A stretch of 64,000 nucleotides of DNA from a bacterium (GTDB taxonomy: Bacteria > Pseudomonadota > Alphaproteobacteria > Sphingomonadales > Sphingomonadaceae): NCBI GenBank assembly GCA_030824575.1, contig JAVBXL010000223.1, positions 62,001 through 126,000 of the forward strand, in the 5' to 3' direction. Every line of letters starts with the position of its first letter. Positions within the stretch are counted from its first letter, which is position 1. This document shows positions 43,729 through 63,214 of the stretch, one piece after another. The translations under genes were made by a program, and so were the position numbers. The notes beneath the pieces were generated by a model, which had not been told where the DNA came from, searched no databases, and worked only from the letters and a program-made list of their open reading frames with translations.

Positions 43729-44202
43729 TTACATGTCTCCGGCGTGGACGGGCTGCGGCACAGGGCCGCGCCGCCACGCGATAGTGAAGGGACGGCCGGG
43801 CGCGCTCCGTTAAGGGCGCGGATGTCGGCATCGTCCAGGTTTGAAGGAAATTATGTGCGTCTGCTGCGTCGGCAGGGCCGGACAAATCGCCGGGCCGGAC
43901 CATCCACGCCGCATCGCCCGTGACCGGGGCAAGCGTGGAATGGAAATCATGCCTCATGCAGCGTCAACCTGTTTGCGACACTGCGGGGGGCAAATGCTGC
44001 CTCCGCCGGTGCCTATCTCATTGCCCCGCAAGGCTGCCCTGATATCGGCAAGTCTTTCGGGAATATGAATGGGTAGCAGTCAAATACCGACGGGGCAACG
44101 GCCGCCTTAAATATAATGCCATGTCCGCCGGTGTGGCTATCGATGCCCTATTCATCGTGAAGGACGGGTTAACCCTCTCATTTTACCGGGCCACAAGGAG
44201 CA

Positions 44203-45531
44203 ATGCTTAATCCAGAATTTAGCGTGGGGACGCTGAACGGATTAGCCCAAATGAAATTTGGCTGGACGGCCGACGGCAGCGCGTCGCACAAGCGGCGCAT
44301 GCTCCAAAGCATTGCCCTGGCAGGCACGATATTGATGGCGGTCCCCGGCAGCGCCGGTGGCATATCCGGCGTGGACGTGCGGGACGACAGGGTCGTCGTG
44401 CGCTTCGACGACCGTGTAAACGGCGCTTCCGCCTTTCTGCTGGACGCGCCGCGCCGTATTGCGCTCGACATCGACGGCGCGCACATGGGCCGGGGGCGGT
44501 TCACGCCGGGCAACGGTGCCATCGCCGCGGTGCGCCAGGGACAGCTCAACGGCGACACCGCCCGCGTGGTGCTCGACCTGTCGGGTCCAGCGACGCTGGG
44601 CAATGCGCGGCTGGCGCAGGACGGCAAGTCGCTCAGCTTCTCGCTTCAGGGCGTAAGCGACAGCCGGTTCCGCGCCGAAGTGGGGAAGGGGCGCACCCGC
44701 TTCGATGCGCCCGCCGACATGGCGGCCTATCCGCAAAAGCGCATCCATTCGATCACCGTGCCGATCCCCGCTGCGTCGCGCGGCGTGTCGCTGCCGCAGG
44801 TGGAGGGCACGAATAACGGCGCCCGGCCGCTGGTGGTGATCGATGCGGGCCATGGCGGCCATGATCCCGGCGCGATCAACAAGGAGAATGGCAAGCGCGA
44901 GAAGGACGTCACGCTGGCGATCGCCCAGGCGATTCGCGATCAGCTGGTTAAATCCGGCCGGGTGCGCGTGGCGCTGACCCGCGACGACGATAAATATCTG
45001 GTGTTGCAGGAACGCTATGGCATCGCCCGCAAACTGGGGGCGGACCTGTTCATTTCCGTCCATGCTGACGCGGCGGAAAATACGCAGGCGCACGGCGCGA
45101 CCGTCTATACCCTGTCCGAAACCGCGTCAGACCGGGAAGCCGCGCGCCTCGCAGCGCGAGAGAATAAGGCCGACATCATCAACGGCGTAAACCTTGGCGG
45201 CCAGTCGGGCGACGTATCGTCGATCCTGATCGACCTGACCCAACGCGAATCGATGAACATCTCGGCCAATTTCGCGCGGCTGCTGCAACGGGAGGCGGCG
45301 CCCTATGTGCCATTCCGCAGCGCCTATCACCGCTTTGCGTCGCTGATGGTGCTCAAGGCCCCGGATACGCCGTCGGTCCTGTTCGAAACCGGTTATATCA
45401 GCAATGCCGACGATGCGGCCTTCCTCTCCTCGCGCGAGGGGCAGGGCAAGATCGCCCGCGGCGTCGCCCGCGCGATCGAGGTGCATTTCGCCCGCAAGCT
45501 GGCGATGCGGGACGGGGCCGCGGGGGGATAG
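44203..45531 (+). CDS. N-acetylmuramoyl-L-alanine amidase (AmiC-like, AMIN + Amidase_3)
   Basis: VVIDAGHGGHDPGAINKENGKREKDVTLAIA, LFISVHADAA, LFETGYISNADDAAFL. Confidence 0.95.
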   Translation: MLNPEFSVGTLNGLAQMKFGWTADGSASHKRRMLQSIALAGTILMAVPGSAGGISGVDVRDDRVVVRFDDRVNGASAFLLDAPRRIALDIDGAHMGRGRFTPGNGAIAAVRQGQLNGDTARVVLDLSGPATLGNARLAQDGKSLSFSLQGVSDSRFRAEVGKGRTRFDAPADMAAYPQKRIHSITVPIPAASRGVSLPQVEGTNNGARPLVVIDAGHGGHDPGAINKENGKREKDVTLAIAQAIRDQLVKSGRVRVALTRDDDKYLVLQERYGIARKLGADLFISVHADAAENTQAHGATVYTLSETASDREAARLAARENKADIINGVNLGGQSGDVSSILIDLTQRESMNISANFARLLQREAAPYVPFRSAYHRFASLMVLKAPDTPSVLFETGYISNADDAAFLSSREGQGKIARGVARAIEVHFARKLAMRDGAAGG

Positions 45532-45721
45532 GCTGTCCTATTGGTGGCGACTTTGCTATTATGGCTCAGCCTTTCGGATAGGATCAGGGCGGCGCAACAA
45601 AATGTCGGAATCGGCGGGAAATGTGCGAAGCTAAGGGGATGGTCGCCGCGCGCGGGCGATACAGATGCGGCGGATCGCGTCATGCCCACTGGTCTTGGCG
45701 ATAATTTGACCCTAGAGCCTC

Positions 45722-48265
45722 TTGCCTATGGAAGAGGCCCGTTCCGAACCCGCCCCGTCGTCCTTCGCCTATCGCCTGCGCCGCGACGCGGGGGGCTTTT
45801 TCGGCCGTCTGCGTCCCTTGTGGCAGCGTCGCTGGGTGCGATGGATGTCGATCCTGCTGGGCGGCTTCGCCCTGTTCTGCGCCTTGTTCTGGCTGATCTT
45901 CGCGCGCGGCCTGCCTGACGCTGCGACGCTGCTGGAATATGAGCCGCCGCTGCCGACCATCGTGCGCGACATCAATGGCCAGCCCGTCCACAGCTATGCT
46001 CGCGAACGCCGCGTCCAGCTGCAATATAGCGATTATCCCCCGCTGTTGATCCGCGCCTATCTGGCGGCGGAGGACAAGACCTTCTTCGAACATCATGGCG
46101 TCGATATTCCGGGCTTCGCCGGCGCGGTAGTCGATTATGCCAGCAAGCTGGGGTCGGGCCAGCGCGCGCGCGGCGGCTCCACCATCACCCAGCAGGTGGC
46201 CAAGAACCTGCTGATCGGCGACGAATATTCGCCCACGCGCAAGGTGAAGGAGATGATCCTCGCCTACCGCATGGAAAATGTGCTGAGCAAGCAGCAGATA
46301 CTCGAACTCTATCTCAACCAGATTTTCCTGGGCCGGAATGCCTATGGCGTGCAGGCCGCCGCGCGCGCCTATTTCGACAAGGATGTCGCCGACCTCCAGC
46401 TGCACGAAATGGCCTATCTGTCGATCCTGCCCAAGGGGCCGGCCAATTACCGTCCCGAAAGCGAAACCGGCCACGCCCGCGCGATCGACCGGCGCAACTG
46501 GTCCCTGGGCGAGATGGAGAAGAACGGCTGGATTACCCCGGCGCAGCGCGCGGCGGCTGTGGCCATGCCGCTGGGCACCGTCGCCGCCCATGGCTCCAGC
46601 TTCGATGCGCGCGCAGGCGGCTATTATATGGAGGAAGTGCGCCGCCGCCTGATCGGGCTGTTCGGCGAAAAGGCCGATGATGGCCCCAACAGCGTCTATG
46701 CCGGTGGCCTGTGGGTGCGCAGCCCCTATGATCCGGTGGTGCAGGACAGCGTCGCCACCGCGCTGCGCAACGGCCTGCTGCGCTTCGATGCCGGGCGCGG
46801 CTGGTCCGGTCCGGTCGGCCACATCAATATCGAAAATGGCTGGGAGCGCGAACTGGCGGCCAGCTATATCTCCGTCGATTATGCCGAATGGCGCGTCGCC
46901 GTCATCATCAGCCGGACCGCGTCCGACGCGCAGCTCGGCTTTGCCGACGGCGGCACCGGCACGCTGCCCGCCGGATCGGCGCAGATGCCGTATCGCAAGG
47001 TCGGCGGGCCTGCCTTTTCCGCAATGAAGCCCGGCGACCTGATCGTCGTCGCGCGCAACGGGGCAAGCTGGGCGCTGCGCTCCATTCCCGAAGTGTCGGG
47101 CGGCATGGTGGCGGAGGAAGTGCATTCGGGCCGCATCCGCGCGATGCAGGGCGGCTTCGATTCGCGGCTTTCCTCCTACAACCGCGCGACGCAGGCGATG
47201 CGTCAGCCCGGCTCCACTATTAAGCCGTTCGTCTATGCGGCCGCGCTCGACAATGGCATGACCCCGGCGTCGATCATCGTCGATGGGCCGTTGTGTGTCT
47301 ATCAGGGCGCGGGCCTCGGCCAGAAATGCTTCCGCAACTTCTCCGGCGGGTCCGCCGGGCCGCAGACGATGCGCTGGGGCGTGGAGCAGTCGCGCAACCT
47401 GATGACCGTACGCGCCGCCAGCCAGACCGGCATGGACCGCGTCGTGCGCACCATCAAGAATCTGGGGATCGGCGATTATCAGCCCTATCTCTCCTTCGCG
47501 CTGGGCGCGGGCGAGACGACGGTGGAAAAGATGGTCAACGCCTATGCCACGCTCGCCAACCAGGGGCGGCAATTCCCGTCCAAGGTGATGGATTATGTGC
47601 AGGACCGGCGCGGCAAGGTGATCTGGCCAGAGCGCTGGCGCCCCTGCGACGGCTGCAACATGGCGAACTGGGACGGCAAGCCGATGCCCCGCTTCGGCAT
47701 GGAGGGCAAGCAGGTCATGAACCCGATGACCGCTTATCAGGTCGTCCACATCACCGAAGGCGTGGTCCAGCGCGGCACCGCCACCGTGCTGGCCGATTTG
47801 CAGCGGCCGCTGTTCGGCAAGACCGGCACCACTAACGGCCCGACCAACGTCTGGTTCGTGGGCGGATCGCCCGACATCGTCGCGGGCGTCTATATCGGCT
47901 ACGACCAGCCGCGCAGCCTGGGCGGTTGGGCGCAGGGTGGCCGCATCGCCGCGCCGATCTGGAAAGCGGCGATGGCGCCGATCCTTGAAACCATGCCCAA
48001 AACCCCCTTCGTCGCGCCGGCCGGCATTCGCATGGTCGCGATCGACCGTCGTTCGGGCAAGCGCGTCTATGGTGCCTGGCCCGGCACCGACGCCAAGCCC
48101 GCGATCATCTGGGAAGCGTTCAAACCCGAATCCGAACCGCGCCGCACCATCCGCAAGGAAGAAGCCGAAGCCCAGGCCAAGGTCGCCGCCGCCAGAGCGG
48201 TGACGAGCCGCACCCGCCAGCGCAGCGACGCCGACTTCCTCGAAGGGCAGGGCGGGATCTACTGA
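45722..48265 (+). CDS. mrcA: Penicillin-binding protein 1A
   Basis: Transglycosylase AAEDKTFFEHHGVD, GGSTITQQVAKNLL; transpeptidase PGSTIKPFVYAAALD, GKTGTTN. Confidence 0.96.
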   Translation: MPMEEARSEPAPSSFAYRLRRDAGGFFGRLRPLWQRRWVRWMSILLGGFALFCALFWLIFARGLPDAATLLEYEPPLPTIVRDINGQPVHSYARERRVQLQYSDYPPLLIRAYLAAEDKTFFEHHGVDIPGFAGAVVDYASKLGSGQRARGGSTITQQVAKNLLIGDEYSPTRKVKEMILAYRMENVLSKQQILELYLNQIFLGRNAYGVQAAARAYFDKDVADLQLHEMAYLSILPKGPANYRPESETGHARAIDRRNWSLGEMEKNGWITPAQRAAAVAMPLGTVAAHGSSFDARAGGYYMEEVRRRLIGLFGEKADDGPNSVYAGGLWVRSPYDPVVQDSVATALRNGLLRFDAGRGWSGPVGHINIENGWERELAASYISVDYAEWRVAVIISRTASDAQLGFADGGTGTLPAGSAQMPYRKVGGPAFSAMKPGDLIVVARNGASWALRSIPEVSGGMVAEEVHSGRIRAMQGGFDSRLSSYNRATQAMRQPGSTIKPFVYAAALDNGMTPASIIVDGPLCVYQGAGLGQKCFRNFSGGSAGPQTMRWGVEQSRNLMTVRAASQTGMDRVVRTIKNLGIGDYQPYLSFALGAGETTVEKMVNAYATLANQGRQFPSKVMDYVQDRRGKVIWPERWRPCDGCNMANWDGKPMPRFGMEGKQVMNPMTAYQVVHITEGVVQRGTATVLADLQRPLFGKTGTTNGPTNVWFVGGSPDIVAGVYIGYDQPRSLGGWAQGGRIAAPIWKAAMAPILETMPKTPFVAPAGIRMVAIDRRSGKRVYGAWPGTDAKPAIIWEAFKPESEPRRTIRKEEAEAQAKVAAARAVTSRTRQRSDADFLEGQGGIY

Positions 48266-48363
48266 GGCGCTACCGGGCCTATGCTCTTCCCAAATCTGCC
48301 GCCCTCGGATAGGGGCAGTCGCTTGATGCGTTAACGCGCCAGCCAAATATCCGGAGACTCCCC

Positions 48364-49491
48364 ATGCGCGCCGAAGCGCAGCAATATATCGACCGTATCG
48401 ACGCCGCGCTGGAATTGCTGCGCCGCTTCCTCGACTGGGACCGCGCGCTGCGTCGGCTGGACGAGTTGAATGCGCGCGTCGAAGACCCGACCCTGTGGGA
48501 CAATGCCAAGCTGGCGCAGGAGGTGATGCGTGAGCGCACCCGGCTGGAAAGCGCGATCGGCGCGACCCGCGCGATCGAGGGCGGCAAGACCGACAATGCC
48601 GAACTGATCGAAATGGCCGAGGCCGAGGGCGACGAGGAGATGGTGGCCGAGGCCATCGCGTCGTTGAAGGCGCTGGCCGACCAGGCGGACGAGGACAAGA
48701 TCAAGGCGCTGCTGGCGGGCGAGGCCGATGCCAGCGACACCTATCTGGAAATCCATGCCGGGGCGGGTGGCACCGAAAGCCAGGACTGGGCCGAAATCCT
48801 CTCGCGCATGTATCGCCGCTGGGCCGAACGGCGCGGCTACAAGGTGGACCTGGTCGATTATCAGGCAGGGGAAACCGCGGGCATCAAGTCCGCGACCTTC
48901 CTGATCAAGGGCGAGAACGCCTATGGCTATGCCAAGACCGAGAGCGGCGTTCACCGCCTGGTCCGCATCAGCCCCTATGACAGCGCGGCGCGGCGCCACA
49001 CCAGCTTCTCGTCGGTGTGGGTCTATCCGGTGATCGACGACAATATCGATATCGAGGTCAAGGAATCCGACCTCAAGATCGACACCTATCGCGCATCGGG
49101 CGCGGGCGGGCAGCACGTCAACACCACCGACTCCGCGGTCCGCATCACCCACGTCCCGTCCGGCATCATCGTGGCGTCGCAAAATGATCGGTCGCAGCAC
49201 AAGAACCGCGCGACTGCGATGAATATGCTCAAAGCGCGCCTGTACGAGGCGGAACTACGCAAGCGCGAGGAAGTGGCAAACAGCGATTATCAGGCCAAGA
49301 CCGAGATCGGCTGGGGCCACCAGATCCGTTCCTATGTGCTGCAACCCTATCAGCTGGTGAAGGATCTGCGCACCGGCGTCACCTCCACCGCGCCCGACGA
49401 TGTGCTGGACGGCGCGCTCGACCCGTTCATGGCCGCCGCTCTGTCACAGAAGGTGACGGGCGAGAAGGTCGATGTGGAGGATGTGGACTGA
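48364..49491 (+). CDS. prfB: Peptide chain release factor 2 (no programmed frameshift)
   Basis: AGAGGTESQDWAEIL, SGAGGQHVNTTDSAVRITHVPSGI, SPYDSAARRHTSFSSV; a single uninterrupted frame. Confidence 0.97.
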   Translation: MRAEAQQYIDRIDAALELLRRFLDWDRALRRLDELNARVEDPTLWDNAKLAQEVMRERTRLESAIGATRAIEGGKTDNAELIEMAEAEGDEEMVAEAIASLKALADQADEDKIKALLAGEADASDTYLEIHAGAGGTESQDWAEILSRMYRRWAERRGYKVDLVDYQAGETAGIKSATFLIKGENAYGYAKTESGVHRLVRISPYDSAARRHTSFSSVWVYPVIDDNIDIEVKESDLKIDTYRASGAGGQHVNTTDSAVRITHVPSGIIVASQNDRSQHKNRATAMNMLKARLYEAELRKREEVANSDYQAKTEIGWGHQIRSYVLQPYQLVKDLRTGVTSTAPDDVLDGALDPFMAAALSQKVTGEKVDVEDVD

Positions 49492-52579: not shown

Positions 52580-54646
52580 ATGAAAGTAAAATGGATCGCG
52601 CTTGGCGGCGCTGCGGCAATGGCGCTATGTCATCCGGCCGTTCACGCGGCAGAAGACGCCGTGGCGGCGGATGCGGAACAGGCGCAGGACAGCATCATCG
52701 TCACAGCCGCCACCACCGGATCAAAGACCGATACGGCGCTGGTCGAACTGCCCCAGCCGATCAAGGTCATTACCTCGGAACAATATCTGTCGCAGGGCGC
52801 GATCAGCATTTCCGACACGGTCAAATATGCCGCCGGCGTGCTGGCCAACCCCTATGGCCGCGACACCCGCGTCGATGGTTTCAACGTGCGCGGTCTGGAC
52901 GCATTGCAGTTCCGCGACGGTATGCGCGACATCTTCAGCTATTATGCCAGCATCACGTCGGACCCCTATAATTTCTCGCGCGTGGAAATCCTGCGCGGTC
53001 CGGCTTCCGTGCTGTTCGGCCAGGGGTCGATCGGCGGCCTGGTCAACCTCGTGTCCAAGACGCCCGAATTCCGCACCGGCGGCGAGGTGAACCTCGTTTA
53101 CGGCAGCTATGACCGCAAGGAGGTCATGGGCGACGTCAATGTCGCGCTGGCCGATAATATGGCGGTGCGTTTCGTGGGCCGTGCTCGCGACGCGGACACC
53201 TATGTCGATCATGTGCCCGATGATCGCGTGATGTTCGCGCCGTCGATCCGCTGGCAACCCACGCCCGATACCGACATCGTGCTGACCGGCCTCTATCAGG
53301 AGGATGATACGGGATCGACATCTCAATTCCTGCCGATCATTGGTACTTTCCGCCCCAATACCGCCTATCCGCAGGGCAAGCTGGATCAATATGCGTTCGT
53401 CGGCAAGCCTGGCTGGGACCGCTATAATGGTCGCTCGCTGCAAGGCGGCGGCTCCATCACCCACGCCTTCTCCGACGCTATCAAGATCAATCTGAAGGCG
53501 CGCTACATCGACAGCGACCTTGAATATAAAACCCATTATGCCAACAGCTACGCCAATCCCCAAAATCCGTTCGAAGCGGACGGACGCACCATCGGCCTTT
53601 ATGCCGACGCCAGCGATGCGAAGATGAACGTCTTCTCGACCGACAATAATCTTCAGTTCACGTTCAATACCGGCTCTAATATCGAGCATAAGCTGTTGGT
53701 CGGCATCGACTATAGCTGGAACAAAGTCGGCAAGCGCACTGCCAGCGGTTACGATATCATCGACCTTTACGATATCGATACCGACGCGCTACCCACCTAT
53801 GATCCTGTCGGCCCCTATATCTATGAATCGCAGAAGCAACTTGGCGTGTACGTCCAGGACCAGATCCGCCTGTACGACCGCGTCTCGGTCGTGCTGGGCG
53901 CACGCCGCGACCGCGTGACCGGCTCTTCGGGCCAGAAGGACAATGCCACCACCTTCCGCGCCGGCATCATCGGCGAGATCGGCGCAGGCATCTCGCCCTT
54001 CTTCAGCTATACCGAAAGCTTCCTGCCGGTCGCGGGTAACCTCCAGCTGCCCGGCGGTATTCCCGGCGCTCCCTATCGCCCGCAGACCGGCACGCAATAT
54101 GAGGCGGGCGTGAAGTGGCAGCCGGACGTCAACACCCTGATCACGGCCACGGTGTTCAAGATCAAGGAACGCAACCGCGTCCTCTACGGCGCCAACAATT
54201 CCACGACCCAGTCGGGCGTGTTGGACACCAAGGGGTTCGAGATCGAGGCCAGCCGCACCCTGCCGGGCAATTTCGAGCTACTGGCCAATTATGGCTATGC
54301 CAAGCTCAAGTCGGAAGTGAACACCAGCCTAGACTATATGCCGCGCCATACGGCGTCCTTCTGGACCACAAAGACCTTCGGTCTGGTGGACGAGGCCCAG
54401 CTGCGCCTGGGCGGCGGCGTCGTCTACAGCGGCAAGAGCGTGTCGACCAGCGCCATCTGGTCTATCGTCACCCCGGCCCGCACCACGGTCGATGCGCTGG
54501 CGGAGATCAACTGGAATAGCTGGCGCTTTGCGCTGAACGCGACCAACCTGCTCAACAACGAATATTATGCGTCCTGCCTGGCGCGGGGCGACTGTTTCGT
54601 CGGCGCGCCGCGCAACGTGATGGGTACGGTCGGTTTCCGGTTCTGA
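52580..54646 (+). CDS. TonB-dependent siderophore-type receptor
   Basis: Plug LPQPIKVITSEQYLSQGAISISDTVKYAAGVL...VEILRGPASVLFGQGSIGGLVNLVSKTP; C-terminal Phe (GTVGFRF). Confidence 0.95.
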   Translation: MKVKWIALGGAAAMALCHPAVHAAEDAVAADAEQAQDSIIVTAATTGSKTDTALVELPQPIKVITSEQYLSQGAISISDTVKYAAGVLANPYGRDTRVDGFNVRGLDALQFRDGMRDIFSYYASITSDPYNFSRVEILRGPASVLFGQGSIGGLVNLVSKTPEFRTGGEVNLVYGSYDRKEVMGDVNVALADNMAVRFVGRARDADTYVDHVPDDRVMFAPSIRWQPTPDTDIVLTGLYQEDDTGSTSQFLPIIGTFRPNTAYPQGKLDQYAFVGKPGWDRYNGRSLQGGGSITHAFSDAIKINLKARYIDSDLEYKTHYANSYANPQNPFEADGRTIGLYADASDAKMNVFSTDNNLQFTFNTGSNIEHKLLVGIDYSWNKVGKRTASGYDIIDLYDIDTDALPTYDPVGPYIYESQKQLGVYVQDQIRLYDRVSVVLGARRDRVTGSSGQKDNATTFRAGIIGEIGAGISPFFSYTESFLPVAGNLQLPGGIPGAPYRPQTGTQYEAGVKWQPDVNTLITATVFKIKERNRVLYGANNSTTQSGVLDTKGFEIEASRTLPGNFELLANYGYAKLKSEVNTSLDYMPRHTASFWTTKTFGLVDEAQLRLGGGVVYSGKSVSTSAIWSIVTPARTTVDALAEINWNSWRFALNATNLLNNEYYASCLARGDCFVGAPRNVMGTVGFRF

Positions 54647-54668
54647 CGATCATAAGAGGAGAGCGAGC

Positions 54669-55301
54669 ATGAAGAGAGTATCCATGGCCCTGTTGGCGCT
54701 GGTGGCCCTGTCGTCCACGGCGCAGGCGCATGAGGTGTGGGTGGAGCGTGACGGCACCGGGCCGGCGCGCATCTATCTGGGCGAACCGGGCGATGCGATG
54801 CCGGAGGGTGGCGACCCTGAGTTCGAGAAGCTTAAAAGCCCCAAGCTGGTGCCGGGATCGAGCGCCGCGCAGGTCCGCAAGACCGGCTATATCGAGGTCG
54901 CCGCGCCCGCCGGAGACGTGCGCGTCATCGACGACAGCGTTTTCGCGCCCTGGGGCGAAGAGGGCAAGAAGGAGGGCGTGATCTATTATGCCCGCGCCGG
55001 CCGCGCGGAAGTCAAGGCGGGGCTGCCGCTGGAGATCGTGCCCACCGCCGCCAACGCCGATAGCTTCACGCTGGTTCGCGACGGCAAGCCGGTGCCCGCC
55101 ACCAAGCTGACCGTCATTTCGCCCGACAAATGGACCAAGGCGTTCACGACCGATGCGCAGGGCCGCGTCACGCTGCCGATCAAGGACAAAGGCCGCTATA
55201 TCCTGAGCGCGACGCAGGAGGAAAAGGGCGATCTTAGCCTTGCCGGGCAGAAGGTTGCGACCCTCTACCACATGGCGACGCTGACCTTCTTGAACGATTG
55301 A
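54669..55301 (+). CDS. DUF4198-like periplasmic protein
   Basis: Signal peptide; AHEVWVERDGTGPARIYLGEPGD; VTLPIKDKGRYILSATQEEKGDL. Confidence 0.72.
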   Translation: MKRVSMALLALVALSSTAQAHEVWVERDGTGPARIYLGEPGDAMPEGGDPEFEKLKSPKLVPGSSAAQVRKTGYIEVAAPAGDVRVIDDSVFAPWGEEGKKEGVIYYARAGRAEVKAGLPLEIVPTAANADSFTLVRDGKPVPATKLTVISPDKWTKAFTTDAQGRVTLPIKDKGRYILSATQEEKGDLSLAGQKVATLYHMATLTFLND

Positions 55302-55312
55302 ACAACAATGTG

Positions 55313-55363
55313 ACGGTGCGTGTCATGGATATGACATGGCACCGTCGCGCAATCCACATTGCG
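55313..55363. promoter_or_regulatory. Adjacent inverted repeats between DUF4198-like gene and second TonB receptor
   Basis: gacggtgcgTGTCATggatATGACAtggcaccgtc and GCAAT-ccac-ATTGC. Confidence 0.45.
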
Positions 55364-55423
55364 GTGCAACATGACGCGGATAGGCCGCCCCCGAATTAAG
55401 GTCCAAAGGGGGATTATCCGACC

Positions 55424-57742
55424 ATGCGTATCACCACCGCTCTGCTGATGGCGTCGACCGCCATCATCGCCCAATCCGCCTATGCCCAGGATGTTGCGCC
55501 CGCCGCCGATGCCGCCGCCGTCGATGGCGCTGACATCATCGTGTTTGGCCGCGGCGAAACCCGCCAGGTGCAGGAAATCAAGGCGCGCGACATCGTCGTG
55601 CTGACGCCGGGCACCAATCCACTCAAAGCCATCGAAAAGCTGCCCAGCGTTAATTTCCAGTCCGCCGACCCGTTTGGCAATTATGAATGGTCGCAGCGCC
55701 TCTCAATCCGCAGCTTCGATCAGACCCGGCTCGGCTTCACGCTCGACGGCATCCCGCTGGGCGACATGAACTATGGCAATCATAATGGCCTGCATGTCAC
55801 CCGCGCGATCAGCAGCGAGAATATCGGCAGCGTGCGCGTCAGCCAGGGTGCCGGTTCGCTCGGCACCCAGGCGACCGGCAATCTGGGCGGCACGGTCGAA
55901 ACCTTCTCGATGGACCCGACCGGTGAATTCGGCGCGCAGGGCAATTTGACCTATGGCAGCGACGACACCTGGCGCGCCTTCGGCCGCGTCAACCTGGGCA
56001 GCGCAGACGGCATCCGCGGCTATGTGTCCTACGGCTATGGCTCTACCGACAAATATAAGGGCGAGGGCGTTCAGGACCAGCATATGGGCAACGCCAAGGT
56101 CGTGATCCCGGTCGGCGACGCCAAGATCGACGGCTGGCTCAGCTATTCCGACCGCCGCGAGCAGGATTATCAGGATATGTCGATGGGCATGATCCGTCGC
56201 CTGGGCTGGGACTGGGACAACACCTACCCCGACTATGCCCGCGCGATCGATTATGCCGACCGCCTGAACGATGTTGATCTGGTCAGCAACAGCGGCGGGT
56301 CGCCCTTCCCTGATGGCCTTTACGACTATAGCGGCGCGACCGTCGCTACCGGCCAGACCTATCCGGGGAATGTCACCAGCGCCGACGACGCCTATTATGA
56401 CGCGGCTGGCCTGCGCAAGGACTGGCTGGGCGCGGTCGGCCTGACCACGCCGCTGGGCGACAGCGCGACCTTCAAAATTAAGGGCTATTACCACAATAAC
56501 AGCGGCATGGGCCTGTGGGCCACCCCCTATACTCGCAGCCCCAACGGCGTGCCGATGTCGGTGCGCACCACCGAATATGACATGGACCGGATCGGCGTGT
56601 TCGGCAGCGTCGACTATACGCTTGGCATCCAGAACCTCAGCGTCGGCGCTTGGTATGAGAATAACCAGTTCCATCAGGCCCGCCGCTTCTATGCCTTCGG
56701 CAGCCGGACCGCGCCGGGCCTGTCGTTCCGCGACTATCCCAAAAACCCCTTCTTCACCCAGTGGGAATTCGATTTCACCACCGACACCTTCCAATATCAT
56801 GTCCAGGACAAGATTGACCTCGGCATGGTGACGATCAACCTGGGGTGGAAGGGCTTCAAGGTCACGAACAAGGCCGAAGCGATCGTCGCATCAACCTTCC
56901 CCGAAGGAAAGATCAAGGCGGAGGACTGGTTCCAGCCTCATGCCGGGTTCGCGGTGGAACTCAGCCCGGAAGCGGAAATCTTCGGCGGCTTCACGCAGGT
57001 CACCCGCGCCTTCGCGTCGGCCACCACCACCGGGCCCTTCTCGACCAACCAAGTCGGTTTCAATGCGATCAAGGATGATCTGAAGCCCGAAACGTCCGAC
57101 ACGTTCGAACTGGGCCTGCGCTACAACACGCCAGTCTTCAACGGCACGCTGGGCGCCTATCTGGTCAACTTCAAGAACCGCCTGCTTGCGGTGCAGGTGG
57201 GCAGCCCGATCGAGGGTCTGGCTTCTGCGCTCCAGAATGTCGGCGGCGTGCGCGCGGTCGGGGTCGAGGCGGCGGGCGACCTGCGCCTTGGCCATGGCTT
57301 TGGCGTCTATGCCAGTTACAGCTACACCGACGCGACCTATCGCGACAATGTGTTCAGTAGTGTCGCAAACGCGGATGGCACATTCCCGCTGGTCGCCCCG
57401 ATCAAGGGCAAGACCGTGGTCGACAGCCCCAAACATATGCTGCGCGGGGAGGTTAATTACGATCAGGGTCCGGTCTTCGGCCGGATCGGCGTCAACTATA
57501 TGTCGCGCCGCTATTACAGCTACACCAACGACGCCTCGGTCCCCAGCCGCGTCATCGTGGACGCCTCGCTCGGCTATCGCTTCACCGACAAGATCGAGTT
57601 GCAGCTCAATGCGACCAACCTGTTCGACAAGAAATATGTCGGCACGATCGGGTCGGGCGGCTTTGTGAACAGCGGCGACGCACAGACATTGCTGGTCGGC
57701 GCGCCGCAGCAATTCTTCATCACTGCCAAGGCCGGGTTCTAA
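55424..57742 (+). CDS. TonB-dependent receptor
   Basis: Plug (LKAIEKLPSVNFQSADPFGNYEWSQRLSIRSFDQTRLGFTLDGIPLGDMNYGNHNG), beta-barrel, C-terminal Phe (FFITAKAGF). Confidence 0.94.
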   Translation: MRITTALLMASTAIIAQSAYAQDVAPAADAAAVDGADIIVFGRGETRQVQEIKARDIVVLTPGTNPLKAIEKLPSVNFQSADPFGNYEWSQRLSIRSFDQTRLGFTLDGIPLGDMNYGNHNGLHVTRAISSENIGSVRVSQGAGSLGTQATGNLGGTVETFSMDPTGEFGAQGNLTYGSDDTWRAFGRVNLGSADGIRGYVSYGYGSTDKYKGEGVQDQHMGNAKVVIPVGDAKIDGWLSYSDRREQDYQDMSMGMIRRLGWDWDNTYPDYARAIDYADRLNDVDLVSNSGGSPFPDGLYDYSGATVATGQTYPGNVTSADDAYYDAAGLRKDWLGAVGLTTPLGDSATFKIKGYYHNNSGMGLWATPYTRSPNGVPMSVRTTEYDMDRIGVFGSVDYTLGIQNLSVGAWYENNQFHQARRFYAFGSRTAPGLSFRDYPKNPFFTQWEFDFTTDTFQYHVQDKIDLGMVTINLGWKGFKVTNKAEAIVASTFPEGKIKAEDWFQPHAGFAVELSPEAEIFGGFTQVTRAFASATTTGPFSTNQVGFNAIKDDLKPETSDTFELGLRYNTPVFNGTLGAYLVNFKNRLLAVQVGSPIEGLASALQNVGGVRAVGVEAAGDLRLGHGFGVYASYSYTDATYRDNVFSSVANADGTFPLVAPIKGKTVVDSPKHMLRGEVNYDQGPVFGRIGVNYMSRRYYSYTNDASVPSRVIVDASLGYRFTDKIELQLNATNLFDKKYVGTIGSGGFVNSGDAQTLLVGAPQQFFITAKAGF

Positions 57743-57746
57743 CATC

Positions 57747-59087
57747 ATGAAGAAGGCCGCGCTTTTCCCGCTCCTCCTCGCCGCTTTCGTTCCGACGGCA
57801 GCGCTGGCGGAGCCGCTGCTCCTCATCTCGATCGACGGGCTGCGGCCCGGCGACGTGTTGGAGGCGGACAAGCGCGGCCTTTCACTGCCCAATCTGCGCC
57901 GCTTCCTGACGCAGGGCGCCCATGCGTCGGGCGTCACCGGCGTCGCGCCGACATTGACCTATCCCAGCCACACGACCCTGATGACCGGGGTGTCGCCCGC
58001 GACACATGGCATCGTCGCCAATAACAGTTTCGATCCGACCGGCATCAACCAGGGCGGCTGGTATTGGTATGCCCAGGATATCAAGGTGCCGACTTTGTGG
58101 GAGGCGGCCACGAAGGCGGGGCTTTCGACGGGCAATGTCCATTGGCCCGTCAGCGTCGCGGCCAAGGGCGTGACCTGGAACCTGCCGCAAATCTGGCGCA
58201 CCGGCCATGCCGATGATGCAAAGCTGCTGGATGCGCTGGCCACGGTGGGGCTGAAGGCCGAACTGGAAGCGAAAGTCGGCCAGCCCTATGCGATGGGGAT
58301 CGACGAGAGCCTGCCCGGCGACCAGTCGCGCGGTCGGTTCGCTACCGCGCTGATCGCCGCGCATCAGCCGCAATTCCTGACCGTCTATCTGACCGCGCTG
58401 GACCATGAACAACATGCGATGGGACCGGACACGCCGCAGGCCAGGGCCGTGCTGGAAAGGATCGACGCCATCGTCGGCGATCTGGTCGCTGCCGAGCGCA
58501 AGGCGCATCCCGACGCGGCGATCGCGCTGGTCAGCGATCATGGGTTCGAAGCGACCCAGACCGGCCTCAACCTCTTCCGCGCCTTCATCGACGAAGGGCT
58601 CATCACGCTGGACAAGGACGGCAAGGTCGCGTCCTGGCAGGCGATGCCCTGGATAGCGGGCGGGTCGGCCGCGATCATGCTGGCGCGCCCGGATGACGCC
58701 GCCATCGCCGATCGGACGAAGACGCTGCTCGACCGACTCGCCGCCAATCCGGCCAACGGCATTGCGTCGGTGCTGGACAAGGCGGCGATCGCCAAAACCG
58801 GCGGCAATCCGCAGGCGTCTTATTATGTCAATCTGAAGCCCGGCTTCGTCACCGACATCTTCCGCGGCGCGAGCGCGCCCCTGATCGCGCGCACGCCGGT
58901 CAAGGGGATGCACGGCTATCTGCCCGGTCCCGCCCATCTGGATGCGACTTTCATGGTGATGGGCAAGGGGATCGCCGCGGGCAAGGACCTGGGCCGGATC
59001 GACATGCGCGCCATCGCGCCGACGCTGGCGACGATCATGGGCGGGACGCTGCCCGACGGGCAAGCGCTGCCGATCGACCTGCGGTAA
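57747..59087 (+). CDS. Alkaline phosphatase-family (nucleotide pyrophosphatase/phosphodiesterase, NPP-like) enzyme
   Basis: LLISIDGLRPGDVLEADKRGLSLPNLRRFLTQGAHASGVTGVAPTLTYPSHTTLMTGVSPATHGI; IALVSDHGFEAT; signal peptide. Confidence 0.9.
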   Translation: MKKAALFPLLLAAFVPTAALAEPLLLISIDGLRPGDVLEADKRGLSLPNLRRFLTQGAHASGVTGVAPTLTYPSHTTLMTGVSPATHGIVANNSFDPTGINQGGWYWYAQDIKVPTLWEAATKAGLSTGNVHWPVSVAAKGVTWNLPQIWRTGHADDAKLLDALATVGLKAELEAKVGQPYAMGIDESLPGDQSRGRFATALIAAHQPQFLTVYLTALDHEQHAMGPDTPQARAVLERIDAIVGDLVAAERKAHPDAAIALVSDHGFEATQTGLNLFRAFIDEGLITLDKDGKVASWQAMPWIAGGSAAIMLARPDDAAIADRTKTLLDRLAANPANGIASVLDKAAIAKTGGNPQASYYVNLKPGFVTDIFRGASAPLIARTPVKGMHGYLPGPAHLDATFMVMGKGIAAGKDLGRIDMRAIAPTLATIMGGTLPDGQALPIDLR

Positions 59088-59187
59088 CAAATCTGCGCAC
59101 AAAACGTCACCGGACTGACCGATGGCCTTCATGCCGTTGCAACCGCGCCGTAAGCGGCGCGTCACTTGCCCGCTGTAATCTGGCACC

Positions 59188-60219
59188 ATGACAGCGACAC
59201 ATCCCCGCCAGATCCGCATCCCGGCTGCCGACAAGGCGCGGTTGCATATCCTCTTCCTCGCCAAGCACGCCCGCGCCGGCGGCCGGCCTGATGCGCAGGA
59301 TGGCAATCATGCCGTCTATCATCATGAAATGCGCACGACGCTGGAGGCGATCGGCCTGCATATCGATGTCGCCGACGGCTATGACGCGCTGTTCGATCGG
59401 CCCGACGCCGATTTCGTCGTCACCCTGCTCAACCGCGGCGGTTTTCAGAATAGCGAAATGCTGGCCCCGCTGCTGCTCAGCCGCCGCGCCGTCCCCTATC
59501 TGGGCGCCAGCCCGATCGTGCGCGGCCTGTCCGACGACAAATATCTCAGCAAACTGATCGCGCGGACGCGCGGCGTGCCGACGATGCGGGCGCAACTGTT
59601 CCGCCGTGGCGGCCTGTTCGATGCCCCCGCCTTCCACGCCGACCGGCTGGTGGTGAAGCCCAATGCCTCGTCCGCCTCCTGGGGCGTCAAGATGGTCGAT
59701 AGCTGGGCGGATGCCCATGCCCATGCGGACAGCCTGTTCGCGCTCGGCCATGACGTGCTGGTCGAAGAATGGGCACCGCTGCTGGACGTCGCGGTGCCGG
59801 TGATCGGCGGCGGTGGGGGCCAACCCTGGATCTTGCCGCCCATGATGTATGTCCCCGCCGATCCGCATCGCGAACGCAGCTATGAGGAGAAGCGCGGCCT
59901 GATCGGCGCCGGCGACGACCCGCTGATCCTGGTCGAGGATGCCGATCTGCGCGCCCGACTGGAGGCGATGACCGCCGCGCTGTTGCCCGAACTCTGGCCG
60001 TTCGATTATGGCCGCTTCGAATTTCGCTATGATCCCGCCAGCGGGCAGCTGCTGTTCATGGAAGTGAACCTGTCCTGCAACCTGTGGTCGAAGAAGACGA
60101 TCGCCCGCTCCGCCGCCTCGATCGGCCTCGATCATGCGGCGCTGGTCGAAACGATCGTCGGCCATAGCCTGGCGCGGCAGGGGTTGCTGAGCGACGCGAT
60201 CGTGCGGGTGGCGGCATGA
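59188..60219 (+). CDS. ATP-grasp enzyme, D-Ala-D-Ala-ligase-like
   Basis: LVVKPNASSASWGVKMVDSWADAHA, LVEEWAPLLDVAVPVIG, YGRFEFRYDPASGQLLFMEVNLSCNLWSKKTIARSAASIG. Confidence 0.78.
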   Translation: MTATHPRQIRIPAADKARLHILFLAKHARAGGRPDAQDGNHAVYHHEMRTTLEAIGLHIDVADGYDALFDRPDADFVVTLLNRGGFQNSEMLAPLLLSRRAVPYLGASPIVRGLSDDKYLSKLIARTRGVPTMRAQLFRRGGLFDAPAFHADRLVVKPNASSASWGVKMVDSWADAHAHADSLFALGHDVLVEEWAPLLDVAVPVIGGGGGQPWILPPMMYVPADPHRERSYEEKRGLIGAGDDPLILVEDADLRARLEAMTAALLPELWPFDYGRFEFRYDPASGQLLFMEVNLSCNLWSKKTIARSAASIGLDHAALVETIVGHSLARQGLLSDAIVRVAA

Positions 60220-61028
60220 GGACCGGCGGCACCACCGCGATCCTGCTCGCCGGCCGGCGCGACGGCGCGACCGATCCGCTGGCGCAGGCCGCCGGCGTCA
60301 CGCATAAATGCCTGGTCCCGGTCGCGGGCCAGCCGATGCTGCTGCATGTGATCGAGGCTCTGGTCGCCAATCGCCGGATCGGGCACGTGCGCGTCGTGAT
60401 CGAAGACCCGGCGCTGCTGGCCGGCCTGCCGCCGCTGCGCGGGTTGCTTCATAGCGGCCGGGTGATCGGTGTAGGGGCGCAGCCCAATCTGGTGGACAGC
60501 GTGCTGGCGGGCGCGGATGGCGCGGCTTTCCCGCTGCTCGTCACCACCGCGGACAATGTGATGCTGACTCCGCAAGCGGTGGACGAGATGCTGGACGGAT
60601 GCATGGCGCAGGGGGCGGACGCCGCCGTCGCCTTCACCCGCCGCGTGTCGGTGCTGGCCGCGCATCCGGCAGGACAGCGTAAATTCTACAATTTCGCCGA
60701 CGATAGCTATTCCAACTGCAACACCTATTGGCTGCGCGATCGGGCGGCGCTGAAAGTCGCCGAGACGTTCCGGTCGGGCGGCCAGTTCGTCAAGCATCCC
60801 GGACGCATCATCGGCGCTTTCGGCCTGCTCAACCTGCTGCGCTTCCGTTTCGGCATCGGCACGCTGGATCAGGCCTTCGCCCGCTTTTCGCGCCGTTTCC
60901 GCCTGACCATCAGCCCCGTGATCCTCACCGACGGCGCGGTGGCGGTCGACGTGGACAATGCCCGCTCGCACGGTGTGGCGGAAGAGATGCTGGCCGGGCG
61001 CAGCACGCTGGCCGTGGCGGCGGAATAA
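60216..61028 (+). CDS. MobA-like / sugar NTP-transferase family nucleotidyltransferase
   Basis: TTAILLAGRRDGATDPLAQAAGVTHKCLVPVAGQPMLLHVIEAL; FPLLVTTADNVML; start overlaps previous stop. Confidence 0.8.
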   Translation: MRTGGTTAILLAGRRDGATDPLAQAAGVTHKCLVPVAGQPMLLHVIEALVANRRIGHVRVVIEDPALLAGLPPLRGLLHSGRVIGVGAQPNLVDSVLAGADGAAFPLLVTTADNVMLTPQAVDEMLDGCMAQGADAAVAFTRRVSVLAAHPAGQRKFYNFADDSYSNCNTYWLRDRAALKVAETFRSGGQFVKHPGRIIGAFGLLNLLRFRFGIGTLDQAFARFSRRFRLTISPVILTDGAVAVDVDNARSHGVAEEMLAGRSTLAVAAE

Positions 61029-61031
61029 CGC

Positions 61032-62117
61032 TTGTTCACGCTGCGCGCGCTGCCGGTCCGGCGGGACGGCGGCAACAGCCTGATCGCCGCCTATCATGAC
61101 GGGCTGGCGCGCCATTGGTCGCCCGCGCGACGGCTGACGGGGCATGGCCTGTCGGTGATCGGCTTCGGCGGCTGGTCGGCCGCCGAGCGGCTTTATCTGG
61201 ACGAAGCCGTGCGCGCGCAGGGCCTCAGCATGAAGGATCGCAAGGGCCTGCATCGCCTGCTCAACCCCGGCGCCTTTCCGTTATCGGATAACACATTGAA
61301 AAATAAGCAGTTATTTGCGAAAACCGCGACTGGCCTGCCGCTCCCCGACGCCTGCGATCCCGATACTATGGACCTGGACGCCTGGCTGGCCGGGCAGGAC
61401 GACATTATCGCCAAGCCCAGCTATCGTTCCAAGGGGCAGGGGGTGGCGCGGTTCGTCCGCCAAGGCGACCATTGGCGCAACGGCGATTTTTCCCGTAATA
61501 CTGTCCAACTCGCTGTCTCTTTGCGCGCGCTCTGGCGCAAGGGCGGCGTCATCCAGCAACGCCTGCCGACCCATAAGGCGCTGGTCGACCTTTCGCCCGG
61601 CGCGCTGCCGACATTGCGCATCGTCACCTGCCTGAACGAGGCCGGCGCGCCGGAAATCTGCGATACGGCGCTGCGCCTGTCGGCTGGCGGACCCCGGCCG
61701 GTCGATAATTTCAACGCAGGCAATCTGGCGCTCGCGGTCGATGGAGAGGGACGTTGCGGCGCGGCCTGGCGCAGCGGCGGCAAGCGCGCGCCATCCCGCC
61801 ACAGCCGCCATCCCGTAACCGGCATGGCAATCGAAGGCGCGATGATCCCCGACCATGAGGCAGCGTGCGCGCTGGCGCTCCAGGCGCATGAGCGGTTCAG
61901 GCAGGGCTTCACCCTGATCGGCTGGGACATCGGCTTGACGACGCAGGGGCCGGTGCTGATCGAGGGCAATTGGAACCCCGGCACCGACATCCTGCAACTG
62001 GTGAATGGCCGGGGCGTGGCGGACAGTCGGCTGGGTGCGCTCTATCGTCACGCGCTCGATCGATTGACCGACGCGGACTGGCGCGCAGCGCAGGCGGTGC
62101 AGCGGGACCGGCGGTGA
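61032..62117 (+). CDS. Sugar-transfer-associated ATP-grasp protein
   Basis: DDIIAKPSYRSKGQGVARF...GGVIQQRLPTHKALVDLSPGALPTLRIVTCLN...LIGWDIGLTTQGPVLIEGNWNPGTDILQL; TTG start. Confidence 0.8.
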   Translation: MFTLRALPVRRDGGNSLIAAYHDGLARHWSPARRLTGHGLSVIGFGGWSAAERLYLDEAVRAQGLSMKDRKGLHRLLNPGAFPLSDNTLKNKQLFAKTATGLPLPDACDPDTMDLDAWLAGQDDIIAKPSYRSKGQGVARFVRQGDHWRNGDFSRNTVQLAVSLRALWRKGGVIQQRLPTHKALVDLSPGALPTLRIVTCLNEAGAPEICDTALRLSAGGPRPVDNFNAGNLALAVDGEGRCGAAWRSGGKRAPSRHSRHPVTGMAIEGAMIPDHEAACALALQAHERFRQGFTLIGWDIGLTTQGPVLIEGNWNPGTDILQLVNGRGVADSRLGALYRHALDRLTDADWRAAQAVQRDRR

Positions 62118-63214
62118 AGATCGCCCTCTATGTCCACGCGCTCGCGGCGACCGGCGTCGTCCGCAACGTGCGCCTGCTCGCCGGTGACTTCCACGCGCGC
62201 GGTCATGATGTGACGCTGGTGACGGCGCTGCCCGGCGGAGAAAGGGTGGCGGGGGTGCAGCATCATGCGCTGTTGGCGCGGGCGGGGGGATCGCGGACGT
62301 TGCAGAAATGGCGAGCGATTCCCTGGCTCCACGCCTATCTGTGCGGCGCGCGACCCGATATAATGTTGTCGGCCGGCAATCACGGCCATCTGACCGCGAT
62401 GCTGGGCAGTCGCGGGATAGCGGGCCTTCGCCGCATCTATCGGATCAGCAACGACCTGCGCCGCGCCGCGCCGGGCACGCGGGGGAGCCTGGCGGGTTCA
62501 CTGGTCCGGTCGCTGGCCATGCGCCTGCTTGCGGCGGATGCCGACCGGCTGGTGCTGGTATCGCCGACGCTGGTGGTCGGCACCTTCGCCCGCGCGCTCG
62601 CCAAAGGCCGGGCGCACGTCATCGAAAATGCGATCGATCCCGCTGTCGCGCGCGCCCGCGCAGCCGGGCCGTCGCCCCATGGCTGCTATGACGATGGCGT
62701 GCCGGTGATCCTCGCGATCGGCCGGCTGGCGCCGCAGAAGAATTTCGGAATCCTGCTGGCGGCCTTTGCACTGCTGCGCAGCGACGGCATAGCCGCCCGG
62801 CTCGTCATCTTGGGCGAAAGCCGCGACGGCGCGCAACAGGCGCTGCGCGATCAGGCCGATGCGCTCGGCATAGGCGCGGACCTGCTGCTGCCCGGCACGG
62901 TCGACAATGTCTTCCCCTGGCTCGCGCGCGCCGGCGCGTTCGTCCTGCCGTCCTGGTGGGAGGGGTCGGCCAATGTGCTGCTGGAGGCGATGGCGCTGGA
63001 CGTGCCGGTCGTCGCCTCGCGCAGCGCGGGCAATGCGGCCTCGCTCTTGGAACAGGGGCGTCATGGGTTGCTGGTCGATCCATCGGACCCGGCCGCCATG
63101 GCGCAGGCGATGGCGCAGCAGATCGATATGATGCGCGCCATCCGGCCGGGCGATCGGATCGACGCCTATCGGCTGGACGCGATGCTGGACGCCTGGGCGC
63201 AGGCGATCGGCTAG
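62114..63214 (+). CDS. GT4-like glycosyltransferase
   Basis: GTG start overlaps previous stop; VILAIGRLAPQKNFGILLAAFALLR, FVLPSWWEGSANVLLEAMALDVPVVAS. Confidence 0.9.
   Translation: MKIALYVHALAATGVVRNVRLLAGDFHARGHDVTLVTALPGGERVAGVQHHALLARAGGSRTLQKWRAIPWLHAYLCGARPDIMLSAGNHGHLTAMLGSRGIAGLRRIYRISNDLRRAAPGTRGSLAGSLVRSLAMRLLAADADRLVLVSPTLVVGTFARALAKGRAHVIENAIDPAVARARAAGPSPHGCYDDGVPVILAIGRLAPQKNFGILLAAFALLRSDGIAARLVILGESRDGAQQALRDQADALGIGADLLLPGTVDNVFPWLARAGAFVLPSWWEGSANVLLEAMALDVPVVASRSAGNAASLLEQGRHGLLVDPSDPAAMAQAMAQQIDMMRAIRPGDRIDAYRLDAMLDAWAQAIG

Follow-up and report, generated by a model that had tools for sequence, protein, structure and literature searches.

What might a bacterium make with two amide ligases, a nucleotidyltransferase and a glycosyltransferase encoded one after the other? 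The question is raised by four forward-strand genes, here called A, B, C and D, at positions 59188-63214 of a 64,000-nucleotide stretch of a Sphingobium genome (assembly GCA_030824575.1, contig JAVBXL010000223.1, positions 62,001 to 126,000), to which we refer as the window. The four genes almost certainly serve one pathway, which most likely yields a sugar compound decorated with amides and destined for the cell surface. Each part comes from a known superfamily; their combination, together with the families of A and of a pyridoxal phosphate (PLP)-like enzyme linked to it in relatives, looks undescribed.

A conserved four-gene unit

Gene A (59188-60219, 343 amino acids, ATG start) encodes an ATP-grasp ligase of the Ddl superfamily, B (60216-61028, 270 amino acids, ATG start) a MobA-like nucleotidyltransferase, probably a cytidylyltransferase, C (61032-62117, 361 amino acids, TTG start) a ligase of the ATPgrasp_ST family (PF14397), and D (62114-63214, 366 amino acids, GTG start) a GT4-family glycosyltransferase of the GT-B type. 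The domain calls of all four exceed the curated Pfam cut-offs, and both these calls and the open reading frames agree with the coordinates and domain guesses of the original prediction. A and B overlap by 4 nt (ATGA), B and C are separated by 3 nt, and C and D overlap by 4 nt (GTGA). The C/D overlap is kept in every one of the 23 loci that have the two genes in tandem, that of Erythrobacter litoralis among them (L068; L and G numbers denote loci and genomes). Most Sphingobium loci also retain the TTG at which C starts and the 3 nt that separate it from B. The start of D was set at the conserved GTG at 62114; the open reading frame caller had placed it at an upstream TTG (61970). Ratios of nonsynonymous to synonymous divergence (dN/dS) between the window and Sphingobium relatives lie between 0.12 and 0.44 for all four genes, and hence indicate purifying selection on each of them.

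The operon probably begins in the 100-bp gap 5' of A (59088..59187, forward strand), because the upstream gene varies among Sphingobium lineages while A-B-C-D stay intact. A sigma-70-like promoter was looked for in this gap and none was found. The phosphodiesterase gene at 57747-59087 was considered as a further member and rejected, since other genes replace it in other Sphingobium lineages.

Among 37 Sphingobium genomes, 20 carry A. Presence is all-or-none: C is found in 19 and D in 18 of these 20, and neither in any of the 17 without A; the sole genome with A and no C is 60% complete. Fisher tests for joint presence give 1e-9 and 1e-8, values that overstate independence because the genomes are related. 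Across 301 genomes of the order, strong C matches were obtained in 16, of which 14 also carry A, and in six C is unlinked to A, so that joint function beyond mere neighbourhood is well evidenced. The genes run A-B-C-D in Sphingobium and in L068. A second order, D | C-A-B, is seen in the divergent congener G031 and in L135, a locus of a different alphaproteobacterial family. C carries an internal TGA in G031 (G031:C33:145838-146827) and is split across two frames in G012 (G012:C14:326674-327690); in both genomes the gene may be in decay or contain sequencing errors.

Co-transcription and joint function are thus strongly supported by comparative sequence evidence: the gene order and the overlaps persist across relatives, gain and loss are shared, and C accompanies A even when unlinked. 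The co-transcription originally proposed as probable gains from this, and the set proved syntenic in relatives. That the four are chance neighbours with separate functions is hardly credible: each family does occur without the others in some genomes, but the joint presence, the conserved overlaps, the second order of the same four genes and their co-occurrence when unlinked all contradict it. Distance matrices of A, B, C and D correlate with rho between 0.67 and 0.81, which shows co-inheritance of a kind any chromosomal genes could display and was not counted as evidence.

Two ligases, a probable cytidylyltransferase and a GT4 enzyme

A matches PF07478 with 32.7 bits (cut-off 24). In a hidden Markov model (HMM) alignment to solved Ddl, K118, K157, R276, E292 and N294 are invariant across 31 relatives, so that the two ATP-binding lysines and the equivalents of Arg255 and of the Mg-binding Glu270 and Asn272 are all kept, as is the fold. 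A differs from Ddl in its divergent N-terminal substrate region and at Tyr216 and Ser281 (E. coli DdlB numbering), which we take to be positions of the D-Ala pocket: the former is an invariant arginine (Arg236) in the same 31 relatives and the latter a lysine (Lys303) in 90% or more of them. Because of these two replacements, the substrate of A may carry an extra negative charge. A is also far below the NCBIfam cut-offs for Ddl (54.3 bits against 243, and 53.1 against 245.65), and a strong Ddl (136.7 bits) is encoded elsewhere in the genome (G000:C155). We therefore ruled out that A is the housekeeping enzyme. Mycosporine MysD was considered as the nearest Ddl-like precedent and set aside, as none of its supporting genes was seen.

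B matches PF12804 with 38.1 bits (cut-off 27), and K31, D113, D245 and D247 are invariant. Its AlphaFold2 model has a predicted local distance difference test score (pLDDT) of 90 and most resembles, in the PDB, Thermus TTHA0179 (2dpw), followed by GlmU, KdsB and IspD. A profile search also placed 2dpw first, with KdsB and IspD next. TTHA0179, the closest solved relative, is recorded merely as a hypothetical protein, and we found no paper on it; since the nearest enzymes after it in the profile search are the cytidylyltransferases KdsB and IspD, CTP would be the preferred nucleotide.

C scores 124.4 bits against PF14397 (cut-off 31.4) over model positions 7-271 of 278, which places it in this family across most of the model, and K128, D299, E311 and N313 are invariant. 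The nearest solved folds to its AlphaFold2 model (pLDDT 93) are those of LysX/ArgX, RimK and Ddl; a confident sequence match in the PDB was sought and none found, the sequence being too distant. C thus shares its nearest solved fold with the RimK/LysX/ArgX ligases, but has an N-terminal part of its own and belongs to PF14397. D combines GT-B domains (PF13692, 112 bits, cut-off 27; PF00534, 93.1 bits, cut-off 26.4; also PF13439) with an E-x7-E motif read from the sequence in WWEGSANVLLEAM, as in retaining glycosyltransferases of family GT4.

Partners linked to the genes in relatives

In relatives, linkage of A, B, C, D, the PLP-like gene and the flippase was taken from tblastn or HMM coordinates; genes there were called with a simple script, and lists of neighbours are approximate. 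A Wzx-type flippase gene (PF01943) adjoins A, B or C in eight loci, detected by Pfam in L056, L057, L068, L148 and L157 and by tblastn in L061, L080 and L155. The outer flanks of the loci gave zero matches to the flippase queries, which were drawn from these same loci, so that the comparison is not unbiased. The original prediction had stated that no Wzx or Wzy gene sits next to the operon; this holds for the window's genome, by Pfam of the flanking genes, but not for the several relatives with a Wzx-type flippase. A gene for an ELM1-like protein (PF06258) lies directly 5' of A-B-C in L059 and, by tblastn, precedes them in L134 as well.

Another recurrent neighbour encodes a protein of about 490-530 amino acids that resembles fold-type I PLP enzymes and has a GSKF motif whose lysine is invariant; on account of its conserved motifs it is a putative PLP enzyme. 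The family has no Pfam match and no significant match in the PDB or NCBIfam. Its gene is divergent from A, 25-297 bp away, in 35/35 genomes of the order with both, and occurs without A in one further genome; members lie at 11963-13456 of L057 (reverse strand) and at 12837-14321 of L148 (forward strand). It was searched for in the window's genome and not found, and neither an ELM1-like nor a CDP-alcohol transferase gene adjoins the operon there.

A comparison with known systems

The likeness to capsule amidation in Campylobacter jejuni (Cj1435, Cj1437, Cj1438) lies in ATP-grasp amide formation during glycan assembly, alongside a glycosyltransferase (PMC11800379). There, the C-terminal ATP-grasp domain of Cj1438 amidates glucuronic acid of the capsule with (S)-serinol-phosphate or ethanolamine-phosphate, and this use of phosphorylated amines makes it a precedent for our model (PMC11800379). 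Cj1438C is TupA-like and fused to a GT2 domain, whereas here separate Ddl-like and PF14397 ATP-grasps are combined with a GT4 enzyme and a nucleotidyltransferase. A Pfam scan of A and C gave no TupA match, only PF07478, PF14397 and a sub-threshold PF14398; D is a separate GT4 protein. In the Campylobacter O-methyl phosphoramidate route an ATP-grasp enzyme feeds a cytidylyltransferase, which in turn feeds capsule modification. The glutamine kinase of that route carries phosphohistidine-type domains, while A has PF07478 only.

In line with the original prediction, whose author knew of no characterised pathway with exactly this set, we found none with A-B-C-D in the open-access literature, a search that left subscription journals outside and so does not prove novelty. 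Papers on jumbo phages and on class-I aminoacyl-tRNA synthetases that pair ATP-grasp with sphingomonads turned out to be unrelated.

A broad A-B core

By alignment-based search, A is present in 90 of the 301 genomes of the order (34 of 80 genera). The rest of the phylum has it in few genomes, for the most part alphaproteobacterial. No match was obtained in the PLSDB plasmid collection, which ruled out carriage of A on the plasmids covered there. In a tree of 61 A proteins, A-B forms a broad core, the oldest of the module, and C accompanies it in a number of distinct clades: Sphingobium; Croceicoccus and Erythrobacter (L056, L068); Chelatococcus and a relative (L059, L134); Erythrobacteraceae (L069, L070, L075, L078); and L135 with L155. 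The neighbours of unlinked C genes are mostly housekeeping genes, the only new partner being a CDP-alcohol transferase gene in L161.

In some genomes of the order (L123, L126 and L131) A lies between two genes for B-type nucleotidyltransferases. In L132 (8974-15221) and L133 (7487-10175) a distant relative of A has between one and three genes behind it that encode proteins of about 575 amino acids with weak asparagine-synthase-like (GATase_7) matches.

A model and its alternatives

We tentatively favour, at somewhat less than even chances, a pathway in which two amide ligases, a nucleotidyltransferase and a GT4 enzyme build an exported, amide-bearing surface glycoconjugate. A would join a carboxylate to an amine, and one of these partners probably has an extra negative charge, such as a phosphate. 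B would activate the resulting phosphate ester with a nucleoside triphosphate, most likely CTP, and C would form a second carboxylate-amine bond, for which either a sugar carboxylate or the activated unit could be the site. D would add a sugar while the product grows on a carrier, and a Wzx-type flippase, encoded beside the genes in relatives though not here, would export it. The end product would be an aminoacyl- or peptidyl-decorated surface glycoconjugate. Substrates, order of steps, nucleotide, carrier and surface destination are what we infer. A surface glycan had already been suggested in the original prediction and gains support from the flippases beside A, B or C in relatives, from the GT4 enzyme and from the ELM1-like genes; the specific steps it named (activation of a sugar-like moiety, attachment of amino-acid or carboxylate groups, transfer) stay conjectural.

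Several observations weigh against this surface glycoconjugate. By Pfam of the flanking genes, no flippase, Wzy or priming transferase adjoins the operon in the window; Wzy and a priming sugar-phosphate transferase were likewise absent from the Pfam-scanned flanking genes, relatives included, although no systematic search was made. The sample on flippase linkage is biased, its queries having been taken from the very loci concerned, and related genomes are non-independent observations. The charge of the substrate of A was read off an alignment, not a ligand-bound structure. Finally, in many genomes A-B stands alone amid housekeeping genes, and so the A-B core may make something that is used elsewhere.

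Of the two main alternatives, one is a lipid headgroup, which we hold to be unlikely. A and B would make a nucleoside diphosphate-activated phospho-amide, a CDP-alcohol phosphotransferase would load it on a membrane lipid, and C and D would extend it to an aminoacyl glycophospholipid, with no polymer involved. A gene of the CDP-OH_P_transf family does lie near A-B in L055 and just 3' of the unlinked C in L161; alongside it in L055 are genes for an NTP_transferase, a HAD phosphatase and a paralogue of B, and such a paralogue also lies ahead of A in L156. The CDP-alcohol transferase link is confined to two loci and is absent beside the operon here, however, and simple phospholipid headgroups do not usually go with a MOP-type flippase. 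The L055 cluster (flavin mononucleotide (FMN) dehydrogenase, NTP_transferase, a 389-amino-acid protein, CDP-alcohol transferase, HAD) was rejected as a general context, being complete there only; parts of it reappear in L057, L080, L156 and L161. We also consider it improbable, at about one chance in a handful, that the pathway yields a soluble small molecule of the dipeptide or amide type, secreted or stored, which could be an osmolyte, a signal or a glycosylated natural product. ATP-grasp enzymes are known from small-molecule pathways too, A-B alone is the most widespread form, and the patchy occurrence in Sphingobium (20/37) would fit such a product. Polysaccharide-family flippases and ELM1-like proteins that recur alongside speak for something else, as do the lack of a conserved adjacent efflux pump, acyltransferase or peptidase and a stable site near rne-amiC-mrcA-prfB, atypical of a mobile natural-product cluster.

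Two further readings touch on the cell wall. The Ddl-like and RimK-like ligases, the nucleotidyltransferase, the glycosyltransferase and the MOP-type flippase, with a PLP enzyme that would give an unusual amine in one clade, could compose a second, peptidoglycan-like envelope pathway of alphaproteobacteria, whose product would be a so far undescribed kind of lipid-linked glycan unit, aminoacyl or peptidyl; we regard both the pathway and this assignment of its parts as a long shot. Less probable still is that A is a second D-Ala-D-Ala ligase and that the operon modifies peptidoglycan precursors. Its superfamily, and its position next to mrcA and amiC in several genera, would be in keeping with this, but the score of 54 bits against a 243-bit cut-off, the different pocket residues and the separate strong Ddl are not; moreover, no Mur ligase or MurG accompanies A-B-C-D, and shared ancestry of the locus explains its proximity to mrcA.

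Surroundings of the operon

By Pfam, the genes flanking the operon encode TonB receptors, a phosphodiesterase, an aldo/keto reductase, a methyltransferase, an esterase, transglutaminases, a peptidase M3 and a histidine kinase. The region just 5' of the operon (52580-59087), with two TonB-dependent receptors, a DUF4198 protein and a type I phosphodiesterase, recurs in some Sphingobium lineages but not in others and has the look of an uptake locus in its own right. Farther away lies a conserved rne-amiC-mrcA-prfB block (41944-49491), and the A locus is found 10 kb beyond prfB. In Erythrobacteraceae A lies at the rne side of this block, and in G300 between mrcA and amiC (the association was seen in L069-L078, L137-L141, L148-L153, L158 and L159). 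This site looks like the ancestral position of the A-B pair in the order.

Significance

Gene A occurs in about a third of the sampled genomes of the order, usually with B adjoining it. This analysis defines a recurring set composed of two ATP-grasp ligases, a nucleotidyltransferase, a GT4 glycosyltransferase, a flippase and a PLP-like family for which there is no Pfam model. Its value is that of a testable pathway rather than a solved one, with genomes that carry the set and genomes that lack it listed. If the model is true, the operon would add a bacterial route by which amide-linked groups are placed on surface glycans.

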